Virus record (IMG/VR): IMGVR_UViG_3300021440_000058
Location: 1-41,409 of that record
Strand: one strand, 5' to 3'
Length of the DNA: 41,409 nt
From: a virus
Below the pieces are notes generated by a model. It searched no databases and was not told where the DNA came from. It saw nothing but the letters and a program-made list of their open reading frames with translations. The translations under genes and the position numbers were made by a program. Positions 2,306 through 37,773 of this stretch are shown here, piece after piece. Numbering within the stretch: the stretch's first letter is position 1; every line of letters starts with the position of its first letter.

Positions 2306-2357
2306 TGTTATCAAAATGATTACCCCGTCAAGCGGAAATGTTATCGTTTAGATAACA
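2306..2357 (-). promoter_or_regulatory. leftward early promoter with two CI-type operators (O1, O2)
   Basis: There are two 19-bp dyads. O1 (2306-2324) reads TGTTATC-AAAAT-GATTACC. O2 (2339-2357) reads TGTTATC-GTTTA-GATAACA, a perfect 7+5+7 inverted repeat. Reading leftward, a -35-like TTGACG lies at 2330-2325, between the operators. O1 fills the space down to a weak -10-like region (TAACAT/ACATAA) near 2310. A repressor on O1 would therefore cover the promoter core of the leftward operon, and O2 sits just upstream of the -35. The divergent neighbour is the XRE repressor gene, which ends at 2376, the obvious candidate ligand. Confidence 0.65.
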
Positions 2358-2375: not shown

Positions 2376-2786
2376 TTATGCCGCGCGATCGGCCATGGAC
2401 TTTGCGCCCAGACTATCATCGTCTGAAGCGGGGCTGGAGAAATCAACCGGCGCGCGTTGTTCGGCCACGCGGTGGATCAATTCGCGCTGGATATGCCCTG
2501 CCGCGCGGTAGGCGCGGATCAGTTCCATCTCCTCGGCGCGAAGGAAAGCATTCTGTTCGTTTTCATTGAGAAGATCGACGGGAGGCAGGTCAAAGACCTT
2601 CGCGATGCGGCGCATATAGTCGAGGGTGAGCTGCATGCGCCCGACTTCGAGCGAAGAAATTGTGACTTTCGAGACGCCCACCTGATCGGCGAGCGCCTGC
2701 TGCGACAGTCCGGCTCTCATGCGAATGAGCCGGATGCGGTTGGGTGCCTGATCCATTGGCAAGAGATGGAAGACCTGTGCTGCCAT
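2376..2786 (-). CDS. XRE-family repressor, CI-like, 136 aa
   Basis: The N-terminal half (about residues 14-72) is a clear Cro/C1 helix-turn-helix domain: IRLIRMRAGLSQQALADQVG, then VSKVTISSLEVGR and LTLDYMRRIAKVFDLP. The C-terminal half is charged and helical (ENEQNAFLRAEEMELIRAYRAA), with no LexA/S24 peptidase motif. The protein is thus a compact repressor that cannot self-cleave, and induction must use another route, such as the BRO antirepressor at 36.8-37.6 kb. It is transcribed leftward, divergent from the Cro-like gene, with operators at both ends. The start is the ATG at 2786; the Met at residue 11 is an alternative. Confidence 0.85.
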   Translation of the reverse strand: MAAQVFHLLPMDQAPNRIRLIRMRAGLSQQALADQVGVSKVTISSLEVGRMQLTLDYMRRIAKVFDLPPVDLLNENEQNAFLRAEEMELIRAYRAAGHIQRELIHRVAEQRAPVDFSSPASDDDSLGAKSMADRAA

Positions 2787-2814: not shown

Positions 2815-2843
2815 TTGTCAAGATGTTATCGTTTCGATTACAT
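2815..2843 (+). promoter_or_regulatory. rightward early promoter with CI-type operator O3
   Basis: A -35-like TTGTCA (2815-2820) is followed by 17 bp and a -10-like TTACAT (2838-2843). The 19-bp operator TGTTATC-GTTTC-GATTACA (2824-2842) occupies the spacer and most of the -10. It has the same half-sites and 5-bp spacing as O1 and O2. The Cro-like ATG (2852) is only 9 bp past the -10, so the transcript would be leaderless or nearly so if this is the true promoter. Bound repressor would block rightward early transcription. Confidence 0.65.
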
Positions 2844-2851
2844 GACCCGCA

Positions 2852-3076
2852 ATGACACAGGCAGTTCCCCCTCACCCGCTGCGCGCTTGGCGCTTATCCA
2901 AGGGTTTCACGCTGGACCACTGCGCGAAGGGCGTCGGGACGACGCGCCCGGTGTGGCACGCCTGGGAGACTGGCAAGCGCCGCCCGGACCCGAATTTCAT
3001 GCCGAAGGTGCGGAAATTTACGGGCGGTGAAGTGGGCGCTGATGCGTTTTTCCCCAGCATTGAAGAGGCGGCGTGA
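2852..3076 (+). CDS. Cro-like helix-turn-helix protein, 74 aa
   Basis: The first rightward early gene encodes 74 residues. Residues 9-55 look like an XRE/YdaS-type helix-turn-helix: LRAWRLSKGFTLDHCAKGVG, then TTRPVWHAWETGKRRPDPNF. The final residues are FFPSIEEAA. Size, position divergent from the CI-like gene, and the operator just upstream make it the Cro counterpart of the lysogeny switch. The ATG at 2852 has no clear ribosome site and may be read from a leaderless message. The stop overlaps the next ATG (TGATG). Confidence 0.75.
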   Translation: MTQAVPPHPLRAWRLSKGFTLDHCAKGVGTTRPVWHAWETGKRRPDPNFMPKVRKFTGGEVGADAFFPSIEEAA

Positions 3077-9173: not shown

Positions 9174-9349
9174 GCCAGAATTCCTTCGCATTCGAGTGAG
9201 GGGCAGCGCAGGCCTTCCGGGTGCGCATCGATGTGCTTTGCCGTGGTGCGGCAGGTGAAATCGCATTGATCGCAGGACAGCTTGATCATGCGGGTGGTCT
9301 GCTTTGGCGCGGCGTTGCTGATGCCATCGCGCAGGGTGGCGCGGGGCAT
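9170..9349 (-). CDS. small zinc-ribbon protein, 59 aa
   Basis: This is a two-Cys-pair zinc ribbon: LSCDQCDFTCRTTAKHIDAH, then LRCPSLECEG. The spacing C-x2-C, C, H-x3-H, C-x4-C suits a small C2H2 or ribbon-type domain binding nucleic acid or protein. The start is uncertain: ATG at 9349 (used) or an in-frame TTG at 9367; neither has a clear ribosome site. The stop overlaps the next gene by ATGA. It lies directly after the SprT-like gene. Confidence 0.5.
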   Translation of the reverse strand: MPRATLRDGISNAAPKQTTRMIKLSCDQCDFTCRTTAKHIDAHPEGLRCPSLECEGILA

Positions 9350-16354: not shown

Positions 16355-16706
16355 TTACGGCGAAAGCCCCGATCTGCTGGAATTCAGGGCCAAGCTGGCA
16401 GCGGCGCGGGCGTCAAAGCGGGGGGCATTGGCCACGATGCTGACCAAGCGGCGCGATGCGGCGGTGCGGCACGCGGCCTTCATGGCGCTGTTCTATGATG
16501 GCGAAAAGCTGCGGCCCGGTGCGGAAATCGTGCTGGATGATCTGGCTGAAGCGGCAGGATTTGGTGCGGCCTCACCCGTGCTTGACCATGCCGAACTGTG
16601 TTTTCTGGAGGGCAAGCGCTGGCTGCTGCTCCACCTGCTTTCGCGCTTCCGGCTGTCGCCGGAGCGTGCCGCCGAGTTACAATCCCAACTGGAGAATAGT
16701 CGATGA
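16344..16706 (+). CDS. Bbp19-like head-region protein, 120 aa
   Basis: A 120-residue helical protein: YGESPDLLEFRAKLAAARASKR, then a central domain (AVRHAAFMALFYDGE) and FLEGKRWLLLHLLSRFRLSPE. The F-EG-R/K-x(3)-LHLL-R pattern near the C-terminus is like the Bbp19 phage domain, found beside portal and scaffold genes in BPP-1-type phages. The family assignment is by eye. It overlaps portal by 11 bp and the scaffold ATG by ATGA, so it is made with them. Role unknown. Confidence 0.55.
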   Translation: MQPDYGESPDLLEFRAKLAAARASKRGALATMLTKRRDAAVRHAAFMALFYDGEKLRPGAEIVLDDLAEAAGFGAASPVLDHAELCFLEGKRWLLLHLLSRFRLSPERAAELQSQLENSR

Positions 16707-17569
16707 GTGAAGTCGTTGAGTCACCCGCCGCCCCCGCCGCTGAAGCAGCACCGGCTGCCGCACCTGCACCTGAAGCCGCGCCCTTAGCTGCTGCCGCGCC
16801 GCTGGGCCGCGAAGAGCCTGCCCCCGCCGCTGCTGTCCCGGCTGCCACTGCCGCATGGCTGGACGGCCTGCCTGATGAACTGAAGGCCGACAAGACGCTG
16901 GCGCGGTTCAAGACGGTGGAAGACCTGGCCAAGGGCGTGGTCGAACGGCAGGCGATGCTGGGCAACCGGATCGAGCTGCCGAAGGCGGATGATCCCGACT
17001 CGTTCACCCGCTTTGCCGCCGCGATCCGGCCCGAGAAAGCCGAAGATTACAAGATCGAGGTTCCCGAGGGGCAGGATGCGGCATTCGCCGAATCGATGCG
17101 GCCGATTTTCCACGATATCGGGCTGCACCCGTTGCAGGCGGAAAAGCTGGTCGCCGCGAACAATGCCTATGTGGCGCAGCAGACGGCAGCGCTGGAGCAG
17201 GCGGGCCAGAAGGAAGTAGCCGACCTTGAGGCCAGCATGGGCAAGCAGGAATTTGCCGCCGCGAAGATGGCGACTAATGCCTGGCTGACGCGCATGGGTA
17301 TTCCGGTGAAGTTCGATACCGATCTGGCCCGGCTGGTCGGCGCGGGCAATTCGGTGCGCCTGCTGTTCGACATATCGGCGCGCACGGGCGAGCTGGGCAA
17401 GGTCAACGATGCCGATATGGCGCTGGCACTGGGCAGCATGACGCCCGAACAGGCCAAGGCCGAAGCAGCCAAGCTGGATCACAAGGCGCTGCGCAATCCG
17501 AACAGCCCGGAGAGCAAGAAGATGGCCGAATATGCCGCGATCATCTCCAAGGGAAGCTCCGCCCGCTGA
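16703..17569 (+). CDS. capsid scaffolding protein, 288 aa
   Basis: The N-terminus is a long Ala/Pro/Glu-rich disordered segment (residues 5-50). The pattern of phage scaffolds follows: AAWLDGLPDELKADKTLARFKTVEDLAKG...RQAMLGNRIELPKADDPDSF and IRPEKAEDYKIEVPEG. The rest is helical and ends in a basic tail (SPESKKMAEYAAIISKGSSAR). It assists procapsid assembly and is lost before DNA fills the head. Position right before the capsid promoter region and capsid gene agrees. Confidence 0.75.
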   Translation: MSEVVESPAAPAAEAAPAAAPAPEAAPLAAAAPLGREEPAPAAAVPAATAAWLDGLPDELKADKTLARFKTVEDLAKGVVERQAMLGNRIELPKADDPDSFTRFAAAIRPEKAEDYKIEVPEGQDAAFAESMRPIFHDIGLHPLQAEKLVAANNAYVAQQTAALEQAGQKEVADLEASMGKQEFAAAKMATNAWLTRMGIPVKFDTDLARLVGAGNSVRLLFDISARTGELGKVNDADMALALGSMTPEQAKAEAAKLDHKALRNPNSPESKKMAEYAAIISKGSSAR

Positions 17570-17600
17570 TCTGCCCTGTGACTTGCCGTGCGATGACGGC

Positions 17601-17629
17601 TTGACTTTGTTATCGATTCGATAAATGTA
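17601..17629 (+). promoter_or_regulatory. putative capsid promoter containing a CI-type operator
   Basis: TTGACT (17601-17606) is a -35-like element. TGTTATC-GATTC-GATAAAT (17608-17626) matches the 19-bp operator of the lysogeny switch in the left half and in five of seven bases of the right half. It lies in the spacer exactly as at the early promoters. The -10 is not clear (TAAATG or AATGTA). This is the only strong promoter-like sequence in the gene-free 298 bp before the capsid gene. Confidence 0.5.
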
Positions 17630-17633
17630 GACC

Positions 17634-17700
17634 GTGAAGTGGCGGGCCGGGATCATCTCCAGCCCCAAGCGTGGGATGATCCCCTTGCCCGCCCCTTCAC
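17634..17700 (+). promoter_or_regulatory. 67-nt imperfect hairpin in the capsid leader
   Basis: Three blocks pair in order: GTGAAG (17634-17639) with CTTCAC (17695-17700); GGCGGGC (17641-17647) with GCCCGCC (17687-17693); GGGATCATC (17649-17657) with GATGATCCC (17675-17683). That gives 22 pairs broken only by small mismatches, around a 17-nt loop. No gene overlaps it. It could be an attenuator, an RNA-stability or processing element, or a protein site. It begins just after the promoter-like sequence. Confidence 0.6.
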
Positions 17701-17867
17701 CCACCGGCCACCCCGCGCAAGCCGTTTATACGGTGCGGCCCCGGCGCTTCCCCGATAAAGGATCGGGCGTTCAAGCGGCACGTGAGCTGCCAGTCCGGCC
17801 CGGCATCTGCCGATACCCCTGACGAAATTTTCGCACCTTTTGTGAACGTTTTGCCAGGAGAAAGACA

Positions 17868-18812
17868 ATGGCAGTCCCTATTGAAAATTGGCCCGAGAAT
17901 GATCGGACTATCGCCTACAGCCTGAAGGTCACCAACGAACTCAACCAGGTTCCGGGCAAGATCACGCAGGTTTTCGACGAAAGCAATTCCAGCCAGTGCA
18001 GCGGCACGATCAAGGTTCTGGAAGACCGTTTCGATATTATCAATCTCGAAACCCAGAACAACCGCGCCGATGATACCAACTATGTCGATGTCGGCAATGT
18101 TCGCCGCGCGATCCGCAAGCGCAAGCCTGCTGACGCGGCAGTGCTGGTTGGTCGCCATGACCTTCAGGCAACCGACATCAATCTTGAGGCGGTTCCGCCT
18201 GTCCGCCTGGCCGATGCCGTGCGCCGTTATCACGACGACGCATTCTTCGATCCCAACGGCGGCTTCTATGGCAATGCCTATACCGGTGAATATGGTGCGA
18301 CGGCTGTTCCGTTCACCCCCGGCAACATCATTGCCCATGGTGGTACGGGTATCACCAAGGCGAAGTTGCAGGCGCTGATGAAGCTCTACAACGACAACGA
18401 TGTCGATACCGAGATGGAAGAGCCAATCATCCTGATTGACAACCAGGGCGTGATCGATCTGCAGAACATCACCGAATTTGCGAACTGGGATTACAACGAA
18501 GACCGCCCGCTGATGCGCGGCGAGCTTCCGACCGGTCGCGGGTTCCTTGGTTTCCGCTACATCCGCTGCAACCTGCTTTCGGCACGCGCCTATCCTTCGG
18601 CACCGGGCACGCTGGTCCCGGCTGCGAACCAGATTTCGCTGCCGAGCTTTGTCCCGAGCGGTCTGCATCGCGGCGTTTGGACCGAGTTCTTCTATCGCCA
18701 GGGTGAGAACCCCGGAAAGAAGCATCAGCTCCAGCAGTATGCTGAAGCCTGTTCGGCGATCACCCGCATCGACGAAAAGCGCTGCTTCCAGATGGTCTGC
18801 ACGGGCCGTTAA
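17868..18812 (+). CDS. major capsid protein, 314 aa
   Basis: Main shell protein with probable HK97 fold, of the BPP-1 (Bbp17-like) podovirus type. It has MAVPIENWPENDRTIAYSL at the N-terminus, a strongly polar E-loop region (about 40-75), RADDTNYVDVGNVRRAIRKRK, and a long middle with FDPNGGFYGNAYTGEYG. The C-terminal part includes GRGFLGFRYIRCN. Size (about 34 kDa) is typical. A strong AGGAG ribosome site is 8 nt upstream of the ATG, as expected for the most abundant virion protein. A terminator-like hairpin directly follows the gene. Confidence 0.8.
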   Translation: MAVPIENWPENDRTIAYSLKVTNELNQVPGKITQVFDESNSSQCSGTIKVLEDRFDIINLETQNNRADDTNYVDVGNVRRAIRKRKPADAAVLVGRHDLQATDINLEAVPPVRLADAVRRYHDDAFFDPNGGFYGNAYTGEYGATAVPFTPGNIIAHGGTGITKAKLQALMKLYNDNDVDTEMEEPIILIDNQGVIDLQNITEFANWDYNEDRPLMRGELPTGRGFLGFRYIRCNLLSARAYPSAPGTLVPAANQISLPSFVPSGLHRGVWTEFFYRQGENPGKKHQLQQYAEACSAITRIDEKRCFQMVCTGR

Positions 18813-28198: not shown

Positions 28199-30856
28199 GT
28201 GGCGCTATCCGAATGTATTGCCGGTCTGATCAAGGACGGGCTGATCAGCAAGGCCAAAGGCAGCGAAGCCGAGGTGCTGTATGACCGGCATTTCCAGCGG
28301 CTGAAGCGCAGCAAGGGCATGATGGCAGCCGCCAGCGAGGCGAGCGATCTGACGATTGCCAAACTGAAGGGCGATGCAGCAGCGGCGCGGCGCGGCAAGA
28401 TCAGCACGGCGATGGCGCAGGTGCGGGCGCTGGAGGACATGAAGACCTATGCCGGCGGCGTGATGCAGGATGGGTTGATCGACCCGCGATCGGCGACGGC
28501 GCTGGCCGTCTGGGATGATCGCGCCCGCTATATGGACCTTGAGGCGCAGCATGAAGCGGTGCGGGCGACTTACCATGCAACGCTCGATGCCGGGCTGAAG
28601 GCCAACCGGGCGACCATGCTGGGGCGGGTGCGCGATCCGGCGCTGGAAGAGGATATTCTGGCAGCGGCCTATGGCGAGAAGGTTGATTCGATCAACGCCC
28701 GGGAAATCGCCGAGAATGCCCAGAAGGTTGCCGAGCTGGCGCGGCAGCAGTTCAACGAGGGCGGCGGGCATATCGGCAAGATCGATGACTGGCACTGGGT
28801 GCAGGATCACAGCGGCGAAAAATTCATGGCGGCGGGCTATGATGGCTGGAAGGCAATGGTTACCGGAGCTGACGAGCGCGGGGTGCCGATCCTGAAGCTG
28901 GCCAGCATGATCGACCATGAAACCGGCCTGCCGTTCGAGCCTGAAGGCGAGAGCTTCGACAGGGCACTGCGCCAGATGTACCAGAATGTAACCACGGATG
29001 GCCGGGCGACAATGGGCATTGGCCAACCCAAGGGCGCGGCGCTGTACAACCGGCATGCCGAAGAGCGGTTCTTTGTGTTCAGCGATTCGAAGACGCATCT
29101 GGCCTATGCCGCGCAGTTCGGGAAGAGCGGCGTTTGGCAGGGCATGATGCACCATCTGGACCGCATGGCGCGTGATGTGGCGGCGATACAGCGCTTTGGC
29201 GCGAACCCGGATGCGACGATCCGCTTTGTTGGCGACACGCTGATCCAGCAGGCGGCGGAGAGGGTGGGGTTCAAGCCCTATGTCAAAGCGAAGCTGCTGA
29301 AGAACCCGATCGAGTTTGCCCGGCAGAAGCTGCGGCCCGATCCACAGGACCGCGCGCATAGTGCGGCGAAAGAGCTTCAGGCGAGCTATGATGTGTTCAT
29401 GGGCAAGCATGACCTGCAAATCCCGCGCAGTCGCAAGGTTGCGGCGGGGTTCGATGCCTTCCGGTCATGGGAAGGATCGGCCAAGCTGGGCGGGGCATTC
29501 TGGTCTGCGACTACGGGCGATAAGGCGACGGCGGCGGTAACGCGCAGCTTTAACGGGCTGGGGCACCAAGGCTGGCTGACCGATTATCTCAAATTGCTGG
29601 CGCCGACCGAGAACAGCCTGGAGCACCGGCAAATGCTGATCCGGCATGGCGCGCTGGCGGCGGACTGGGCACATTCGGGCGCGCAGGCGCAGCGACAGAT
29701 GGGCGAGGAATTTCAGGGCGAGCTATCGCGCCGACTGGCGGAGCTGACGATTCGCGCCTCTGGCCTGTCAAAGCATACCGACATCGAGCGGCAATTGTTC
29801 GTGCAGCACTTCAATGCCGGGATCGCGGACAATGTGCATCTGCCATTCGACAAGCTGAACCCGAAACTGGCCAAGGGGCTGGATAATTACGGCATCGGCG
29901 CGGCAGAGTGGGATAAGCTGCGGGCCACGCCGCTGGAACCGGCGCATGGCACGGTGTGGTTCAATCCAATGGCGATCGAGGACGGCGCGCTGCGCGATCG
30001 ATACCTGCGAATGGTCCACACGGAAAAGCGCTTTGCCGTGCCCGAGGCTGATCTGCGCACGCGGACGATGCTGAACAGCAATTTCCAGCGCGGCACGGTG
30101 TTTGGCGAGGCGATGAAGAGCCTGTTCCTGTTCAAGGGCTTTGGCCTGATTTTGGGGAACACGCACGGGCGGCGGGCGCTGAGTATGGGCGGCATGGCAG
30201 GCTTGAAGCAAGGCGCTGTTGGCATAGGTGCGCCGATGCTCGCCTATGCGCTGCGGATGAGCGTGTTTTCGATGGTCGCGGGTGCGGTAGCAATCCAGAT
30301 TCATAACCTGCTGCGCGGTAACGATCCCGAGCCGATGGACAGCGCAGCCTTTGCCGGTGCTGCCGAAGCGCAGGGCGGTGGCTGGGGCATCTTCGGCGAT
30401 TTCCTGAAGCAGAGCGACAACCGCTTTGGCGGCGGGATTGCCACGACGATTGCCGGGCCGGGCGGGCAAACGGTGCAGAACGTGCTCGATCTGACCTGGG
30501 GGAATATGTCCAGGGCGAACAAGGGCGAAAAAGTCAACGTTGGGCGCGATATCGTCAAGATCATGCGGCAGGAAGTGCCGGTGGCGAGTTCACTTTGGTA
30601 TCTGCGTCCGGCCTATGACCGGCTGCTGATCCATGAAATGGATGCGATGATCAACCCGGATCACGATGCCGCCGAGGCACGGGCGATCCAGCGGGCTGAC
30701 CGGGCAGGCGCTGCCTATTTTGCGCCGCCCGGATCGGGCATGTCATCATGGCGTGCACCGGACTGGGGCAATGCCATCGGGCAGCCTTCGGTGCCGGAGA
30801 ATGTGGCGGCGCGTGAGGCGGCGCTGGCAAAGGCGGATGCACCTGCCGCGCCTTGA
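28199..30856 (+). CDS. large internal virion / ejection protein, 885 aa
   Basis: This very long helical protein ends the ejection cluster. The N-terminal 200 residues are charged helices. The middle resembles phage internal proteins (SHAEERFFVFSDS-like HAEERFFVFSDS). Two hydrophobic stretches near residues 675-705 (VGIGAPMLAYALRMSVFSMVAGAVAIQI in turn) could insert in the membrane. The tail is Gly/Pro-rich (YFAPPGSGMSSWRAPDWG). GGGAG lies 9 nt before the GTG start. It probably works with the preceding protein in genome translocation. No enzyme motif was seen. Confidence 0.65.
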   Translation: MALSECIAGLIKDGLISKAKGSEAEVLYDRHFQRLKRSKGMMAAASEASDLTIAKLKGDAAAARRGKISTAMAQVRALEDMKTYAGGVMQDGLIDPRSATALAVWDDRARYMDLEAQHEAVRATYHATLDAGLKANRATMLGRVRDPALEEDILAAAYGEKVDSINAREIAENAQKVAELARQQFNEGGGHIGKIDDWHWVQDHSGEKFMAAGYDGWKAMVTGADERGVPILKLASMIDHETGLPFEPEGESFDRALRQMYQNVTTDGRATMGIGQPKGAALYNRHAEERFFVFSDSKTHLAYAAQFGKSGVWQGMMHHLDRMARDVAAIQRFGANPDATIRFVGDTLIQQAAERVGFKPYVKAKLLKNPIEFARQKLRPDPQDRAHSAAKELQASYDVFMGKHDLQIPRSRKVAAGFDAFRSWEGSAKLGGAFWSATTGDKATAAVTRSFNGLGHQGWLTDYLKLLAPTENSLEHRQMLIRHGALAADWAHSGAQAQRQMGEEFQGELSRRLAELTIRASGLSKHTDIERQLFVQHFNAGIADNVHLPFDKLNPKLAKGLDNYGIGAAEWDKLRATPLEPAHGTVWFNPMAIEDGALRDRYLRMVHTEKRFAVPEADLRTRTMLNSNFQRGTVFGEAMKSLFLFKGFGLILGNTHGRRALSMGGMAGLKQGAVGIGAPMLAYALRMSVFSMVAGAVAIQIHNLLRGNDPEPMDSAAFAGAAEAQGGGWGIFGDFLKQSDNRFGGGIATTIAGPGGQTVQNVLDLTWGNMSRANKGEKVNVGRDIVKIMRQEVPVASSLWYLRPAYDRLLIHEMDAMINPDHDAAEARAIQRADRAGAAYFAPPGSGMSSWRAPDWGNAIGQPSVPENVAAREAALAKADAPAAP

Positions 30857-30881
30857 CCTGACGGCCTCGATTCGATAACAG
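30853..30881 (+). promoter_or_regulatory. putative tail-fibre promoter with operator half-site
   Basis: TTGACC (30853-30858), a 17-bp spacer and TAACAG (30876-30881) form a weak promoter. The downstream end, CGATTCGATAACA (30868-30880), includes the GATAACA half of the CI-type operator. It shares CGATTCGATAA with the capsid promoter region. The other half-site is absent. It lies in the 106-bp gap before the fibre gene, the only gap in the tail region after 20 kb. Confidence 0.4.
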
Positions 30882-30962: not shown

Positions 30963-33230
30963 ATGACAGTTTCTTCCCCCTCCATCGTTTCGCACAGCTA
31001 TATTCCGGGCGGGGCCATGCTGGCTGAATCGCTGGCCGGGCTGGTCGCGATTTCGGCCAGTGATCTGGTTGTGACCGATCCTGACGGCGTGGTGCAGGTG
31101 CAGGGCACGGATTACGAGATCACCGGCAATCTGCGGACGGGAACGGCATCGATCCGCACGCTGCGGGCCTATCCGGTTGGGGTGGCGCTGGACGTGCGGC
31201 GCGTGACTGACCGGGTGCAGAAGGCTTCGATTCCGTTCGGTCAACCGCTGCCATCACAGGCGATCGAGCGCGAGCTGGACCGGCAGGCGCTGATCAGCGG
31301 CGAACAGGACGTGGAGATGACGCGGGCGGTCCGCGTTCCGGTGGGGCAGGTCGGCCCGGATTTTCCGTCGCTGGACGATGCCGAGGGCCATGTGCTTGGC
31401 GTGGCTGGCGGAAAACTTATCCCGGTGCAGAATGACCTGATATCGGCGGCTTCGGATGCGGCGCTGGCATCAACGGCGCGCATGTTGGCGCAAGCTGCCG
31501 CTGCCAGCGCTAATGCAAGCGAAGTGATTTCAACGGCAGATTTGGCGGGCTGCAATGTAGCATTGGCGCAGGCTATGTTGGCTGCGCTGGCAGCGGGAGC
31601 CTATGACCATTCATATGCGGCTGTGGTTCCCGCAGGGATCGCAAATGGCAAGCCTTACTGGACGGCCTCAGCGGACAGCAAGGGGCTGCTGCTTTGGAAG
31701 AACAACGCGGGCGCGCCCGCCGCTGTACTTAACCCTGACACATCACAGGTTGAAATTCCTAACTCGATCGCGGTTGCTGACTTGACCGCATTGGCTGGCA
31801 TTCTCGCGGGTGTAACTGGCTCGGCGCTGGTATCGGTGGGCTATGCAGGGACGCTAGCAGAACCTTGGGATGGTGGCGCAACCATGACTGCCGTAGGCGG
31901 TCCATGGAAATACGTTATCGGCAAGGCGGCAGGCGGTGGGCCGCTTCAAAAAATGTCCTTTGGTGTCTCAACCTTTGGTCTCGGCACTGGCGTTCTCAAT
32001 GTGCTGATCATGGAAGAGGATACAGTATTCCCGACTTTGAAGGTGGTTTCGAGCCATGCTGTCACGATCGGCGCTTCAGGACAGGTTGACATTACTGCCG
32101 CCGATTTCGGCGCGATCACGTTAACCGCCGATCAATATGTCGGTTTTTCAATTCCTGCAGGCTCGATCACTTTGTTGGGCAAGCGCGCAACCACACCGGT
32201 AACCTTTGTAAAAAATGGACCGGCTTCGCTTACCTCAGGTACTGATACCTTTGTCGCACTCGGCGGGGGAGACTCGATATTCGCGCGCTTCACCCAACTC
32301 GCCGAAACGCTTCAGGTCAAGGAAGCTAACTTTGATACGTCGCTTGCTTCCATCCCCAAACTCGCTGTCAGCGCATCTCCAAAACAATGGTTGATCGTGC
32401 CGATCTGCGGACAGTCGCATGGTGAGCCGCATTCGGGGACCGATCCTGTAATCATCCTACCGACGGGGATTGCGAAAAAATATTACGGCTCGAACCCAAC
32501 ACTGACGCTCAATCTTACCGATTTTGTCAAAGATCCTGTTGGGCCTACGCTCGGCATTGCTGACAACACACACCAAAGCGGGATCGCGCCTGCTCTCGTT
32601 CAAGAAATATGGGCGCGCACCGGCATGGGTGTTATTATTGTTCCATGCGCAGAAGGCGGCTCTGGCCTCATTTCCGAAGGCCTTGGAGGTGGACGGAATT
32701 GGGCACCTCCCGGCACTGCGGGAGCGAGTGACGGCGGAGGCATTCTGCGAGCTGAAGCCTTGGCCCGTATTCAAAATGCGATGCAGGCGGCGACCGACGC
32801 GGGATTGGCCTGGCAGCTTGGACCGATGGTTTGGACGCAGGGCGGGACCGAGAGCTTGCGCTACGACCATGCCGTAGGGGTGCCGTGGACAGACTTCGGC
32901 GGCAATGTGATCACCGCTGCCAATCGTGCGGCGGCGCTCGGGGTGTTATTTACGTGGTTCCGCACACAACTTGCGCGGCCGAATTTACCTGTCGTGATTA
33001 GCTATGACCCGCCGAAAAACACAGGCGTAACGGCGGGTACGTTGATGGTGAACCAGTCGCTCAAAGATTATGTCGCAAGCGATGAGCACGCCTATCTTGG
33101 CTACACTGCCATTCAGAATTGGGCGGCGCGCGGGATCATGATCGATACCTACCATGGCAACGGTGTCGCCTATGATGAAATGGGCGCGCACCTTGGCCGT
33201 GCAGCCGCAAATGTGGCGTACAAGGCATGA
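30963..33230 (+). CDS. tail fibre with C-terminal SGNH esterase-like domain, 755 aa
   Basis: The N-terminal 150 residues are a T7-type fibre head: SHSYIPGGAMLAESLAGLVA, RVTDRVQKASIPFGQPLPSQ and IERELDRQALISGEQDVEMTR. An Ala-rich helical shaft follows. Residues 470-755 look like an SGNH/GDSL esterase: GQSHGE with Ser at about 485, a Gly-rich block (CAEGGSGLISEG), WTQGGTESL, and D728-x-x-H731 in DTYHGN. It probably removes acetyl groups from host surface polysaccharide while binding. From about 31.7 kb the DNA is less GC-rich, with mixed codon use, suggesting that the tip was exchanged. No reverse transcriptase or repeat of a diversity element is present. Confidence 0.75.
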   Translation: MTVSSPSIVSHSYIPGGAMLAESLAGLVAISASDLVVTDPDGVVQVQGTDYEITGNLRTGTASIRTLRAYPVGVALDVRRVTDRVQKASIPFGQPLPSQAIERELDRQALISGEQDVEMTRAVRVPVGQVGPDFPSLDDAEGHVLGVAGGKLIPVQNDLISAASDAALASTARMLAQAAAASANASEVISTADLAGCNVALAQAMLAALAAGAYDHSYAAVVPAGIANGKPYWTASADSKGLLLWKNNAGAPAAVLNPDTSQVEIPNSIAVADLTALAGILAGVTGSALVSVGYAGTLAEPWDGGATMTAVGGPWKYVIGKAAGGGPLQKMSFGVSTFGLGTGVLNVLIMEEDTVFPTLKVVSSHAVTIGASGQVDITAADFGAITLTADQYVGFSIPAGSITLLGKRATTPVTFVKNGPASLTSGTDTFVALGGGDSIFARFTQLAETLQVKEANFDTSLASIPKLAVSASPKQWLIVPICGQSHGEPHSGTDPVIILPTGIAKKYYGSNPTLTLNLTDFVKDPVGPTLGIADNTHQSGIAPALVQEIWARTGMGVIIVPCAEGGSGLISEGLGGGRNWAPPGTAGASDGGGILRAEALARIQNAMQAATDAGLAWQLGPMVWTQGGTESLRYDHAVGVPWTDFGGNVITAANRAAALGVLFTWFRTQLARPNLPVVISYDPPKNTGVTAGTLMVNQSLKDYVASDEHAYLGYTAIQNWAARGIMIDTYHGNGVAYDEMGAHLGRAAANVAYKA

Positions 33231-35095: not shown

Positions 35096-35350
35096 TCAGA
35101 ATTCTGACTTTCTCTTCGGCGATTTGCGATGGACCTGGTAAATTGTGGTCCCGGTTTGCTTGAATTCATGCGCCATGAGCGTGAAGTGGGGTACCGCTTC
35201 CAAATCTGAAGCCAGTACTTCGATCCTTCCCCCGGCTGCCAGTACCAGCGCGATAATTGCCTGCGCTGTATCGCGCTGTGCAGCGTCAAGGCGCTGTTGC
35301 AGATTGGCAATGATGCGGGACTGCTCGATGAATGCTGCATCGTCCATCAT
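35096..35350 (-). CDS. small protein downstream of integrase, 84 aa
   Basis: 84 residues: a helical N-terminal half (FIEQSRIIANLQQRLDAAQRDTAQAIIALVL) that may form a coiled coil, then a mixed half ending in a basic tail (QVHRKSPKRKSEF). The ATG at 35350 overlaps the integrase stop (ATGA); a second ATG follows directly. It extends into the right-arm repeats of attP. The location and basic tail suggest an excisionase or integration helper, but no Xis/HTH pattern is visible. Confidence 0.55.
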   Translation of the reverse strand: MMDDAAFIEQSRIIANLQQRLDAAQRDTAQAIIALVLAAGGRIEVLASDLEAVPHFTLMAHEFKQTGTTIYQVHRKSPKRKSEF

Positions 35351-36660
35351 GCTTTCCCTCGGGCTTTGGTGCGGGTGTGGCTTTCGGCGATTACGCGGGC
35401 GGTCATGTTGCTATCGACCGGGCCATAGACCTTCATGATGCTGTCAACCGATCCGGGTTCGTGGCCGGTGAGCTGGCCGATCTGATCGTGGGTGAAGCCC
35501 TGGCGCTTTAGCTCGACGACGCGGCTGCGGCGGAAATCGTGCCAGTGCAGATCGTCCATGTCGCTGCGCCCGGTCGCCTCGATCGCGTGATCCTTGATGC
35601 GGTTCCATGCCCGGTTGAAATCGCGGTAGAGCCACGGTTCGCCAGTGGCATCGTTGATCAGCACATGGGTGAGCAGGCGGCGGGGCGTGGCGGCGCGATC
35701 GCGCGCACGATTGGCAGTGATGACCTGGCGCAGCTCTGCCAGCAGCTCCGGCTCGAACGGGATGTGCATGGGTACGTCGCCCTTGCCCTGGGCGAATTGC
35801 CAGCCCCAGACCTTGCCCTGTTTGTCGGCCAGCACGGCCTTGACATCGGGATCGAGCAGGAACTTCATTTCGACAAGCTGATGCTCGGTAAACTTGAGCA
35901 GATCAGCGGTGCGCTGGCCGGTGTAGAAGGCGAGCTTCAGCGCGAAGGCCATATTGGGCATGCCCAGATCGTGGGCGGCGGCGATGAAGGCAGCGCGATC
36001 ATCGGCCTCCCAAATCTGGTGACGGCCCTTGGGCTGGCCGAATTTCTCGTGCGGGTTTTCGATCCACTTCAGCAGGGCACGGAAAGTGCGCAGGTAGTTG
36101 TGCGCGGTCATGTCGCTGACCTGACGGCCTTGCTCCGTATAAACGCCGCGCCCGCGCAGCGAATCGGTCCATGCGGCGATGTGGTGGGGCCGGATATCAG
36201 AGGGCAGCAGATCGCCGAACATTTCCTTGGCGCGGACCAGATTATAGGCGGCGGTGCGCTGGTGCCCGGGCGAAAGGTGGATCAGGTACTGGGTGCGGTA
36301 GCGGTGGATGTGATCGCTGATCGTCATGAAGGAATGGTGCTTGGTGGCGGGCGCCAGCGGCAGCGGTGCGATGGCGTTCTGGCTGGTCGCCTGCGCTGAT
36401 GTTCGGGCTTCGCCCTCCATGCCGGCAGGCTCCGGTTCGCCCCGGCGCCATGCTGCGACATCGGCATTGCGCGACTCGCTGGCGGCGATGGCGAGCTTGC
36501 GATCCTCGCCGAATTTGAGCGAGGTCCAGCCATGGGCCTTCTCGGCGCGGTTGGGTTCCCAGTACCAGAGCAAGCGCCCGCCCGCGCCGGGCTTGACGGT
36601 GAGGCCCTTGATAGCGCTGGCGGCAAGCCGGGCGCGGCGGAGTTCGGGGGTGGGTTTCAT
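35347..36660 (-). CDS. int: tyrosine recombinase, phage integrase, 437 aa
   Basis: Catalyses integration and excision at the tRNA-Gly site. The catalytic set is visible: R250 (YTGQR), H374 and R377 (HDFRRS), H400 (TGHE) and Y412 (MKVYGP). Residues 108-205 are a SAM-like core-binding domain (ISDHIHRYRTQYL...LRTFRALLKWI). The first 80 residues (TVKPGAGGRLLWYWEPNR) resemble an AP2-like/arm-binding domain. The start is MKPTP at 36660, with GGAGA 7 nt upstream and an ATGA overlap with the preceding stop. The open frame continues upstream but only over other genes. Confidence 0.9.
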   Translation of the reverse strand: MKPTPELRRARLAASAIKGLTVKPGAGGRLLWYWEPNRAEKAHGWTSLKFGEDRKLAIAASESRNADVAAWRRGEPEPAGMEGEARTSAQATSQNAIAPLPLAPATKHHSFMTISDHIHRYRTQYLIHLSPGHQRTAAYNLVRAKEMFGDLLPSDIRPHHIAAWTDSLRGRGVYTEQGRQVSDMTAHNYLRTFRALLKWIENPHEKFGQPKGRHQIWEADDRAAFIAAAHDLGMPNMAFALKLAFYTGQRTADLLKFTEHQLVEMKFLLDPDVKAVLADKQGKVWGWQFAQGKGDVPMHIPFEPELLAELRQVITANRARDRAATPRRLLTHVLINDATGEPWLYRDFNRAWNRIKDHAIEATGRSDMDDLHWHDFRRSRVVELKRQGFTHDQIGQLTGHEPGSVDSIMKVYGPVDSNMTARVIAESHTRTKARGKA

Positions 36661-36827
36661 GGGTGTTCTCCATTGGCCGAATCGATCAGGATCACGAGAG
36701 CGGCGAGTGGTTCGGGTTCGAGCATCATGCCGGGGGCCAGCCCGGTTAAGAGCTGGGCGAGGCTGCGAAGGGAAAGGCGCGCCAGCATGGCCCGATCTTC
36801 CTGGTAAGCGGTCTGGTCGTCGTTCAT
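36657..36827 (-). CDS. small hypothetical protein between antirepressor and integrase, 56 aa
   Basis: 56 residues, all helical (MNDDQTAYQEDRAMLARLSLRS, then LLTGLAPGMMLEPEPLAALVILID). Both ends overlap neighbours by ATGA, and GGGAG precedes the ATG. Hence it is co-translated with the BRO-type gene and integrase. No family was recognised. It could help the antirepressor or integrase, which is conjecture. Confidence 0.55.
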   Translation of the reverse strand: MNDDQTAYQEDRAMLARLSLRSLAQLLTGLAPGMMLEPEPLAALVILIDSANGEHP

Positions 36828-37564
36828 TGGACCGACTCCCCGCTGGCGGCGTGAAGCGGCTTGCGCCATGACCAGCGTTGTTCGCTGCCAAATTTGGTAT
36901 TGCGCCAAGTCCAGCCCATGGCGGCAAGAACATCGGCGATGCGGCGTTTGGCTGTTGCATCGGGTAAGCCGATGCCGAGGCCGTGGCCGATATCGGCATA
37001 GGTCAGGCGATCCTTGTCCTGCACCCATGATGCCAATGCCGCAGCAAGGCCATCATCAATGGCAGGGGTGATGTCAGGCACGGGAAGGCCCAGCTTGGGC
37101 CAGATGGCCCGCGCAAAAGTGATGCCGAAGAGGCGGCGCGCCTCACGCACGACAGCAGCGGCGGCAGTAAGGCGCGCCGGATCAGCGCTTTCGAGATTGT
37201 TTGCAGTTTCCGCAAAGAAGTCTGGCTGATCCTTGCCCGGCATGGTGTAGGTTCCGGTGCGGAAGATGCTGGGAAGCACCTCATCGGTGATCCAGCGCAG
37301 AAAGCGCTTGGCCTCTGGCCGCTTGGATCTGATCACGCAGGTGAACATGCCGCCTTCGGTGACAATCATTAACTCCTGCGCACCGCCAAGGGTGTCCACT
37401 TTGTGGACCCCCTTTTGATCGTCATCGAGCATCCGAAGCATGTGTGGTGTATGATTGTAACCGAGTATCGTTGAAATATCGGTGGCGACCCAATGCGGTT
37501 GCTCTTCGAGCATGACAACGCGGACGGGTTTGGTTTCAAAATCGAAGATCGAAAGTTCATTCAT
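36824..37564 (-). CDS. BRO-N antirepressor, 246 aa
   Basis: Residues 1-100 are a BRO-N domain: LSIFDFETKPVRVVMLEEQP, HWVATDISTILGYNHTPHML, LDDDQKGVHKVDTLGG and VTEGGMFTCVIRSKRPEAKRFLRWITDEVLP. The C-terminal part (150-246) is a different domain with a helix-turn-helix feel (LTYADIGHGLGIGLPDATAKRRIADVL). BRO/Ant proteins bind DNA or phage repressors. As the CI-like repressor here cannot self-cleave, this protein is a reasonable antirepressor. MNELS at 37564 with GGAG 8 nt upstream is the start. Confidence 0.8.
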   Translation of the reverse strand: MNELSIFDFETKPVRVVMLEEQPHWVATDISTILGYNHTPHMLRMLDDDQKGVHKVDTLGGAQELMIVTEGGMFTCVIRSKRPEAKRFLRWITDEVLPSIFRTGTYTMPGKDQPDFFAETANNLESADPARLTAAAAVVREARRLFGITFARAIWPKLGLPVPDITPAIDDGLAAALASWVQDKDRLTYADIGHGLGIGLPDATAKRRIADVLAAMGWTWRNTKFGSEQRWSWRKPLHAASGESVQ

Positions 37565-37773
37565 GGCGTGGCTCCAGTGTTTGAGCCGGTCACCTACCTG
37601 CAACTTCTGGTGGCCGGACGCGACGGGTTTGCAGACCGCCTACTGGAAACGGCGCACCCGAAGGTGCCCCACCGCGCCCGACCATAAGAAACCGCGCCTA
37701 AGCGGGTGCCGGGCGCGGGAGCGCCAGTAAGAGCGAGACTGCAAAATCCCGGCAGCGAATTTGCGCTGCGGGC
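37565..37773. promoter_or_regulatory. divergent control region with hairpins
   Basis: A 209-bp gene-free stretch lies between the leftward antirepressor and rightward membrane-protein gene, so it must hold promoters for both or be read through. CCGCGCCCG (37672-37680) and CGGGCGCGG (37710-37718) form a 9-bp perfect inverted repeat enclosing CCGC/GCGG. A GCACC-CGAA-GGTGC hairpin sits at 37654-37667. No copy of the CI-type operator is present, so expression here may be independent of the repressor. No clear -35/-10 pair was found. Confidence 0.4.

Follow-up and report, generated by a model that had tools for sequence, protein, structure and literature searches.

Control of late genes by lysogeny regulators has been described in several forms. 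In phage lambda, CI and Cro are divergent genes and dyad operators lie at the early promoters. CI does not bind the late promoter, and the late genes stay off because Q is lacking. The Bacillus phage GIL01 has a promoter, P3, that serves the capsid and lysis genes and is directly repressed by LexA acting with gp7 (PMC6182141). Direct control of a capsid promoter by a lysogeny regulator is therefore known in kind. The C1 repressor of P1 has 22 dispersed asymmetric operators, and its control of morphogenesis runs by way of an activator, Lpa (PMC8546580). In Cluster A mycobacteriophages, 20-30 stoperators are spread over the genome, mostly outside promoters, with a consensus that follows the repressor, and the evolution of immunity specificity has been described as poorly understood (PMC6550527).

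The DNA analysed here (the window) is the whole of IMG/VR record IMGVR_UViG_3300021440_000058, a phage sequence of 41,409 bp with 63% GC. Like lambda, this phage has a divergent CI/Cro switch with dyads at the early promoters; the difference is that the operator is also found at the capsid promoter. The proposed likeness to GIL01 P3 is that the regulator that keeps lysogeny would directly repress a capsid promoter, although GIL01 uses host LexA with gp7 and P3 also needs the activator gp6, whereas here the regulator would be a CI-type HTH protein encoded by the phage, and its operator specificity has diversified repeatedly (PMC6182141). With P1 the phage shares a single repressor with operators far from the switch, as well as a C4-type antisense RNA (PMC8546580). 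However, P1 has asymmetric 17-bp operators at about 22 places and controls morphogenesis indirectly, whereas the sites described here are symmetric dyads at about five places, one of them at the capsid promoter. The likeness to mycobacteriophage L5 and Cluster A lies in dispersed sites whose consensus tracks repressor specificity between phages (PMC6550527). Those sites number 20-30 per genome, are asymmetric, lie in one orientation mostly away from promoters and mostly block elongation; in contrast, the window has far fewer, and dyads adjoin TTGAC at promoters, with two to four dispersed loci.

A preliminary description of this DNA had set the arrangement against the usual scheme, in which late genes are silent only for lack of an activator. 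That contrast holds against lambda and P1, but the GIL01 capsid and lysis promoter was already known to be directly repressed (PMC6182141). A search of open-access full text for such an arrangement in sphingomonad phages came up empty, which does not prove its absence. The proposed form of capsid-promoter control in this clade is new to us, while dispersed operators as such are known from P1 and mycobacteriophage L5.

The phage and its relatives

The window phage is temperate by gene content, since it carries a tyrosine integrase (Table 1). Matches of its capsid, tail tube and terminase mark it as a temperate relative of HTVC010P-like podoviruses, and related prophages occur in the family of a Novosphingobium metagenome-assembled genome (MAG). 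No close relative was present among 50,697 GenBank phage records, and a single-protein capsid search of IMG/VR gave no matches. Terminase, and later a terminase alignment, yielded several dozen relatives from 398 genomes of the same family and from IMG/VR, many of them metagenomic contigs. The clade consists of dormant-capable viruses of sphingomonad-type bacteria. CI homologs adjoin the switch operators in most relatives. The Cro-like gene has homologs in relatives, and its Pfam HTH_31 match is below the cut-off. The C4 antisense RNA resembles that of P1/P7 antirepressor control and also occurs in N8 (L030:8121-8201) and G415 (L167:13261-13345), in the latter in a different part of the genome.

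Table 1. Features of the window phage discussed in the text
Feature	Coordinates	Strand	Remarks
Switch operator, leftward early promoter	2306..2324	-	minus-strand TTGAC at 2332-2328 (TTGACG)
Second leftward switch operator	2339..2357		perfect dyad TGTTATCGTTTAGATAACA; pattern search and matrix
CI-type repressor gene	2376..2786	-	136 aa; Pfam HTH_3, E 9e-14; PHROG transcriptional repressors
Switch operator, rightward early promoter	2824..2842	+	TTGTC at 2815-2819
Cro-like HTH gene	2852..3076	+	first gene of rightward operon; phrog_3, E 3e-4
Gene upstream of capsid gene	16703..17569	+	phrog_3742, unknown function; scaffold/protease-like by position; syntenic in relatives
Capsid promoter -35, TTGACT	17601..17606	+	TTGAC recurs at matching place in relatives
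Capsid-promoter operator	17608..17626	+	TGTTATCGATTCGATAAAT; pattern search, matrix, comparison with relatives
Putative weak -10, AATGTA	17624..17629	+	17-nt spacing
Long near-perfect hairpin	17634..17700	+	start of capsid leader, right after promoter
Conserved structured leader element	17735..17804	+	hairpin and H-type pseudoknot between two GGNCCCGG repeats
Major capsid protein gene	17868..18812	+	Phage_capsid_2, PF19821, phrog_3437
TTGAC and decayed operator half	30853..30881	+	GATTCGATAACA; upstream of late tail-region gene
Late tail-region gene	30963..33230	+	position suggests a tail spike or fibre; no family match
Tyrosine integrase	35347-36999		
C4 antisense RNA	37606-37689	-	Rfam RF01695, 72.5 bits

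A probable operator in the spacer of a putative capsid promoter

Matches to the 19-bp dyad TGTTATC-N5-GATWACA flank the repressor and Cro-like genes, such that an HTH repressor gene is bracketed by repeated dyads at divergent early promoters, as is expected of a CI-type immunity system. The same operator sequence recurs at an additional promoter, in the 298-bp gap between the upstream gene and the capsid gene. The preliminary description had reported three copies at the switch and one at the capsid gene, and all four were recovered, although the site at 2306-2324 departs from the consensus by one mismatch (it ends ACC). Its observation of a TTGNC-type -35 just ahead of the leftward, rightward and capsid sites was borne out.

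With up to three mismatches allowed, both strands of the window contain nine dyad matches compared with 0.98 expected in shuffled sequence, and none of 100 shuffles reached nine; beyond the four named sites there is one further three-mismatch match at 9256. We also scanned the genome with a symmetric matrix made from the three switch sites, excluding the capsid site. Position 17607-17627 scored 17.9 bits, higher than any other stretch of the 41,409 bp away from the switch, and the runner-up was 30853-30881 with 12.6 bits. No equal to the capsid score appeared in ten first-order Markov randomisations. The window thus contains three switch sites, one capsid site and one decayed site. At the capsid site the left half is perfect and the two mismatches both fall within the last three bases, and this site may be bound more weakly than those of the switch.

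The capsid dyad begins two bases past TTGAC and takes up the spacer that separates the -35 from an A/T-rich -10 zone, which is the classical geometry for repression by occlusion. The presumed -10 is poor, and aligned relatives have an A/T-rich, AAWTTA-like profile at this position. The capsid promoter was absent from a simple E. coli-type promoter scan, which performed at background level (5 found vs 4.3 expected).

The nearest relative, N8, is a prophage in Novosphingobium MAG contig NZ_JAIXPP010000010.1 (L008, L030-L032), with 84% identity to the window in TerL and 87% in the capsid protein. In a blastn comparison of the two phages, the early part of the intergenic region between scaffold and capsid genes does not align, apart from a lone perfect match of 27 bases at 17599-17625, which comprises the -35 and the operator; in an alignment, the flanks of this 27/27 match and the hairpin that follows it have diverged. 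In N8 the switch carries operators at all three places and the capsid leader carries one, all matching the window in position. Within the 4.7-Mb genome of its host, only six places lie within two mismatches of the operator, and five of these are on the prophage contig.

Capsid sites follow repressor specificity across the clade

Other phages of the group have operators of different sequence. A search of IMG/VR with TTGACNNTGTTATCNNNNNGATAA returned 13 stretches, and the operator later proved to be phage-specific. An initial ungapped match of switch against leader was dropped, since coding DNA within the switch segment made it too noisy, and symmetric matrices were used instead. For each of 40 relatives with a repressor and a capsid gene, a matrix was built from the repressor flanks alone and used to scan that phage's own genome. 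These automatic matrices found several switch motifs poorly, and for some switches (G074, G126) they do not work.

Across most of the close group, the phage's own operator recurs in the capsid leader, between the scaffold and capsid genes and after or beside TTGAC, usually 0-4 bases past it. High-scoring own sites at this TTGAC were found in N8, G343, G039, G401, G403, G405, G407, G408, G415, G417, G418, G419 and G420, and weaker ones in G414, G416 and L5 (IMGVR_UViG_3300028590_000998; L005, L033-L035; not the mycobacteriophage). The operator of G408 lies upstream of TTGAC rather than behind it, and in several phages other dispersed sites outscore the capsid site. About 13 different operator sequences are represented across the clade, as in G039 (switch TTATTCATTAAGGATAA, capsid TTGACATATTATTCATGATGGATAA), G343 (switch ATTTGCCCTCTATGGCAAAT, capsid TTGACAAATTCCCCTCTATGACGAAT), G419 (switch TTCAGCATATAGCTTAA, capsid TTGACTGATTAAGCATATAGCGTAA) and G401 (switch AAAATAACGGACAGTTATGTT, capsid TTGACAAACATAACTGTGTGTTAGATT).

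When the pairing of switch matrices with capsid leaders was permuted, the observed trace (z 42.5; permutation sd 5.2) was equalled in none of 100,000 permutations. With one phage per specificity, the observed value of 27.7 (permutation sd 3.6) was equalled in none of 200,000. This procedure controls for composition because the other leaders of the group are also AT-rich promoter regions. Together with the shuffles of the window, it upholds the earlier judgement that the match is unlikely to be due to chance.

The co-varying motif can be tied to the repressor gene. Phages with identical or nearly identical recognition helices have a common operator: the window and N8 (SKVTISSLE), G418 and G420 (TSNVQISDLE), and G415, G416 and G417 (THTHLSNMER). 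Among 28 phages, the more alike the recognition helices, the more similar the operators tend to be (Spearman 0.42; Mantel test, 0 of 5,000 permutations), a correlation that leaves CI and Cro unseparated.

A 19-phage clade in the capsid tree (100/100 support) has the operator in 16 members, or in 17 if the weak G414 site is included. Two members, G126 and G406, gave no convincing capsid site with their own switch matrices, and for G126 the motif finder produced no clear operator and may have failed. In more distant relatives such as G348, G327, L080, L086 and L099, switch operators are clear but the capsid gene has none; the operators scored outside the clade in L087 and L111 may be false or of independent origin. 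Placed on the whole capsid tree, the operator label requires six changes compared with 13.5 for shuffled labels. Given that most of the 19-phage clade has the operator, the arrangement is old in the clade, and its sequence has changed many times. The preliminary description had spoken of an operator copied to the capsid gene. Its recurrence is real, but a one-off event in the window phage does not fit an arrangement common to most of the clade. Because several unlinked operators must change together with repressor specificity, this clade with its approximately 13 specificities is a ready data set on the evolution of immunity specificity, and the approach makes operator sequences readable for temperate phages that have not been cultured.

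Proposed mechanism and alternatives

We propose, with a probability of about 0.82, that 17601-17629 is a sigma70-type capsid promoter whose -35/-10 spacer holds an operator recognised by the CI-type repressor that the phage itself encodes, and that it is directly repressed in the lysogen. A dimer of the 2376-2786 protein would bind the capsid operator and block RNA polymerase, keeping this internal late promoter silent. On loss of the repressor at induction, or in lytic infection, transcription would start here and add capsid transcripts to those derived from upstream; Cro may act on the same sites as CI. An internal capsid promoter is plausible because the demand for capsid protein far exceeds that for the products of neighbouring genes. 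A constitutive promoter at this position would presumably leak in the lysogen, and the immunity repressor could close it without an extra regulator. Across the clade, capsid production is very probably shut off by the repressor acting directly; the repressor would apparently be wired straight to a structural promoter with no late activator as intermediary. Direct control of a capsid promoter by the repressor, first put forward as possible silencing, is well supported by the comparative data from N8 and by the tracking of each phage's own operator.

CI and Cro of lambda-type switches bind common operators, and a Cro-like HTH gene sits at the switch of the window phage; sequence cannot separate the two proteins. 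The capsid site might be mainly a Cro target that shapes the timing of capsid expression, with lysogenic silencing secondary or absent. We consider this unlikely, as it is difficult to see why action of an early lytic repressor at a late capsid promoter should be what chiefly conserves the site, and tblastn found a Cro homolog in fewer relatives (four) than CI (nine).

A slightly less probable alternative is that the bound repressor is a roadblock to upstream transcription, or that what it controls is not the capsid mRNA but a short leader transcript. The dispersal of the sites and the strong hairpin that comes next would suit this alternative, and mycobacteriophage L5 stoperators are known to block elongation (PMC6550527). 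Here, however, symmetric dyads occupy a fixed place by TTGAC, at the switch promoters as well, and are neither orientation-specific nor scattered through coding operons; the leader also runs on into a capsid gene preceded by a ribosome-binding site.

Very improbable is a chance resemblance between an unbound AT-rich spacer and an AT-rich operator in a 63% GC genome, as the background-level promoter scan might suggest, in view of the 27/27 conservation amid diverged flanks, an expectation below one per genome in Markov sequence and the match to about 13 specificities with other leaders as composition-matched controls.

The capsid leader RNA

Nearly all examined relatives have a conserved leader between the promoter and the capsid start codon, beginning with a variable hairpin. 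The region 17625-17870 of the window has a fold z of -4.6. By inspection, relatives have hairpins of unrelated sequence at the matching place, some of them terminator-like (G343, L5). Downstream, the conserved element consists of a GGNCCCGG repeat, a small hairpin, an H-type pseudoknot ending just before AGA and a second GGNCCCGG repeat. RNAalifold gave no useful structure for the leader alignment because pseudoknots are outside its model. A direct search against shuffled letters found that a matching H-type pseudoknot is possible in 21 of 22 sequences while the sequence changes (combined z 6.2). No Rfam family matched the leader at its thresholds, and a low threshold gave only irrelevant miRNA matches. 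Since much of the leader is also present in relatives without the operator, we regard the RNA as a separate feature.

Further dispersed operators

The sites appear to form a dispersed-operator regulon, since more copies lie upstream of the late tail-region gene and between the replication genes and terminase. The fifth operator of N8 is a perfect dyad (30593-30611) upstream of the homolog of that late gene, and the matching position of the window keeps TTGAC and one dyad half. At somewhat less than even odds, we suggest a combined picture in which a small conserved set of loci is under the repressor, comprising two early promoters, one locus in mid-genome and the promoters of the capsid and late tail genes. 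The operators of this regulon would all shift together with immunity specificity, and transcription from the capsid promoter would begin with a new conserved leader RNA, pseudoknotted, that exerts further control over capsid output.

Own-operator matches in the late part of the genome also occur in L5 (37931) and G418 (36483). The window lacks a second operator pair between the replication genes and terminase. Many relatives have such a pair, with members approximately 500 bp apart and resembling the pair around CI; in joined coordinates, examples are G401 (18115/18659), G403 (13900/14433), G408 (14648/15182), G415 (16135/16675), G418 (15251/15776) and G343 (12118/12597). The idea that these operators mark a C4 RNA locus was dropped, as the Rfam C4 hits do not coincide with them. 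On its rightward side, the second pair opens a conserved reading frame (..NKIRGVY..) that may represent an RNA rather than a protein.
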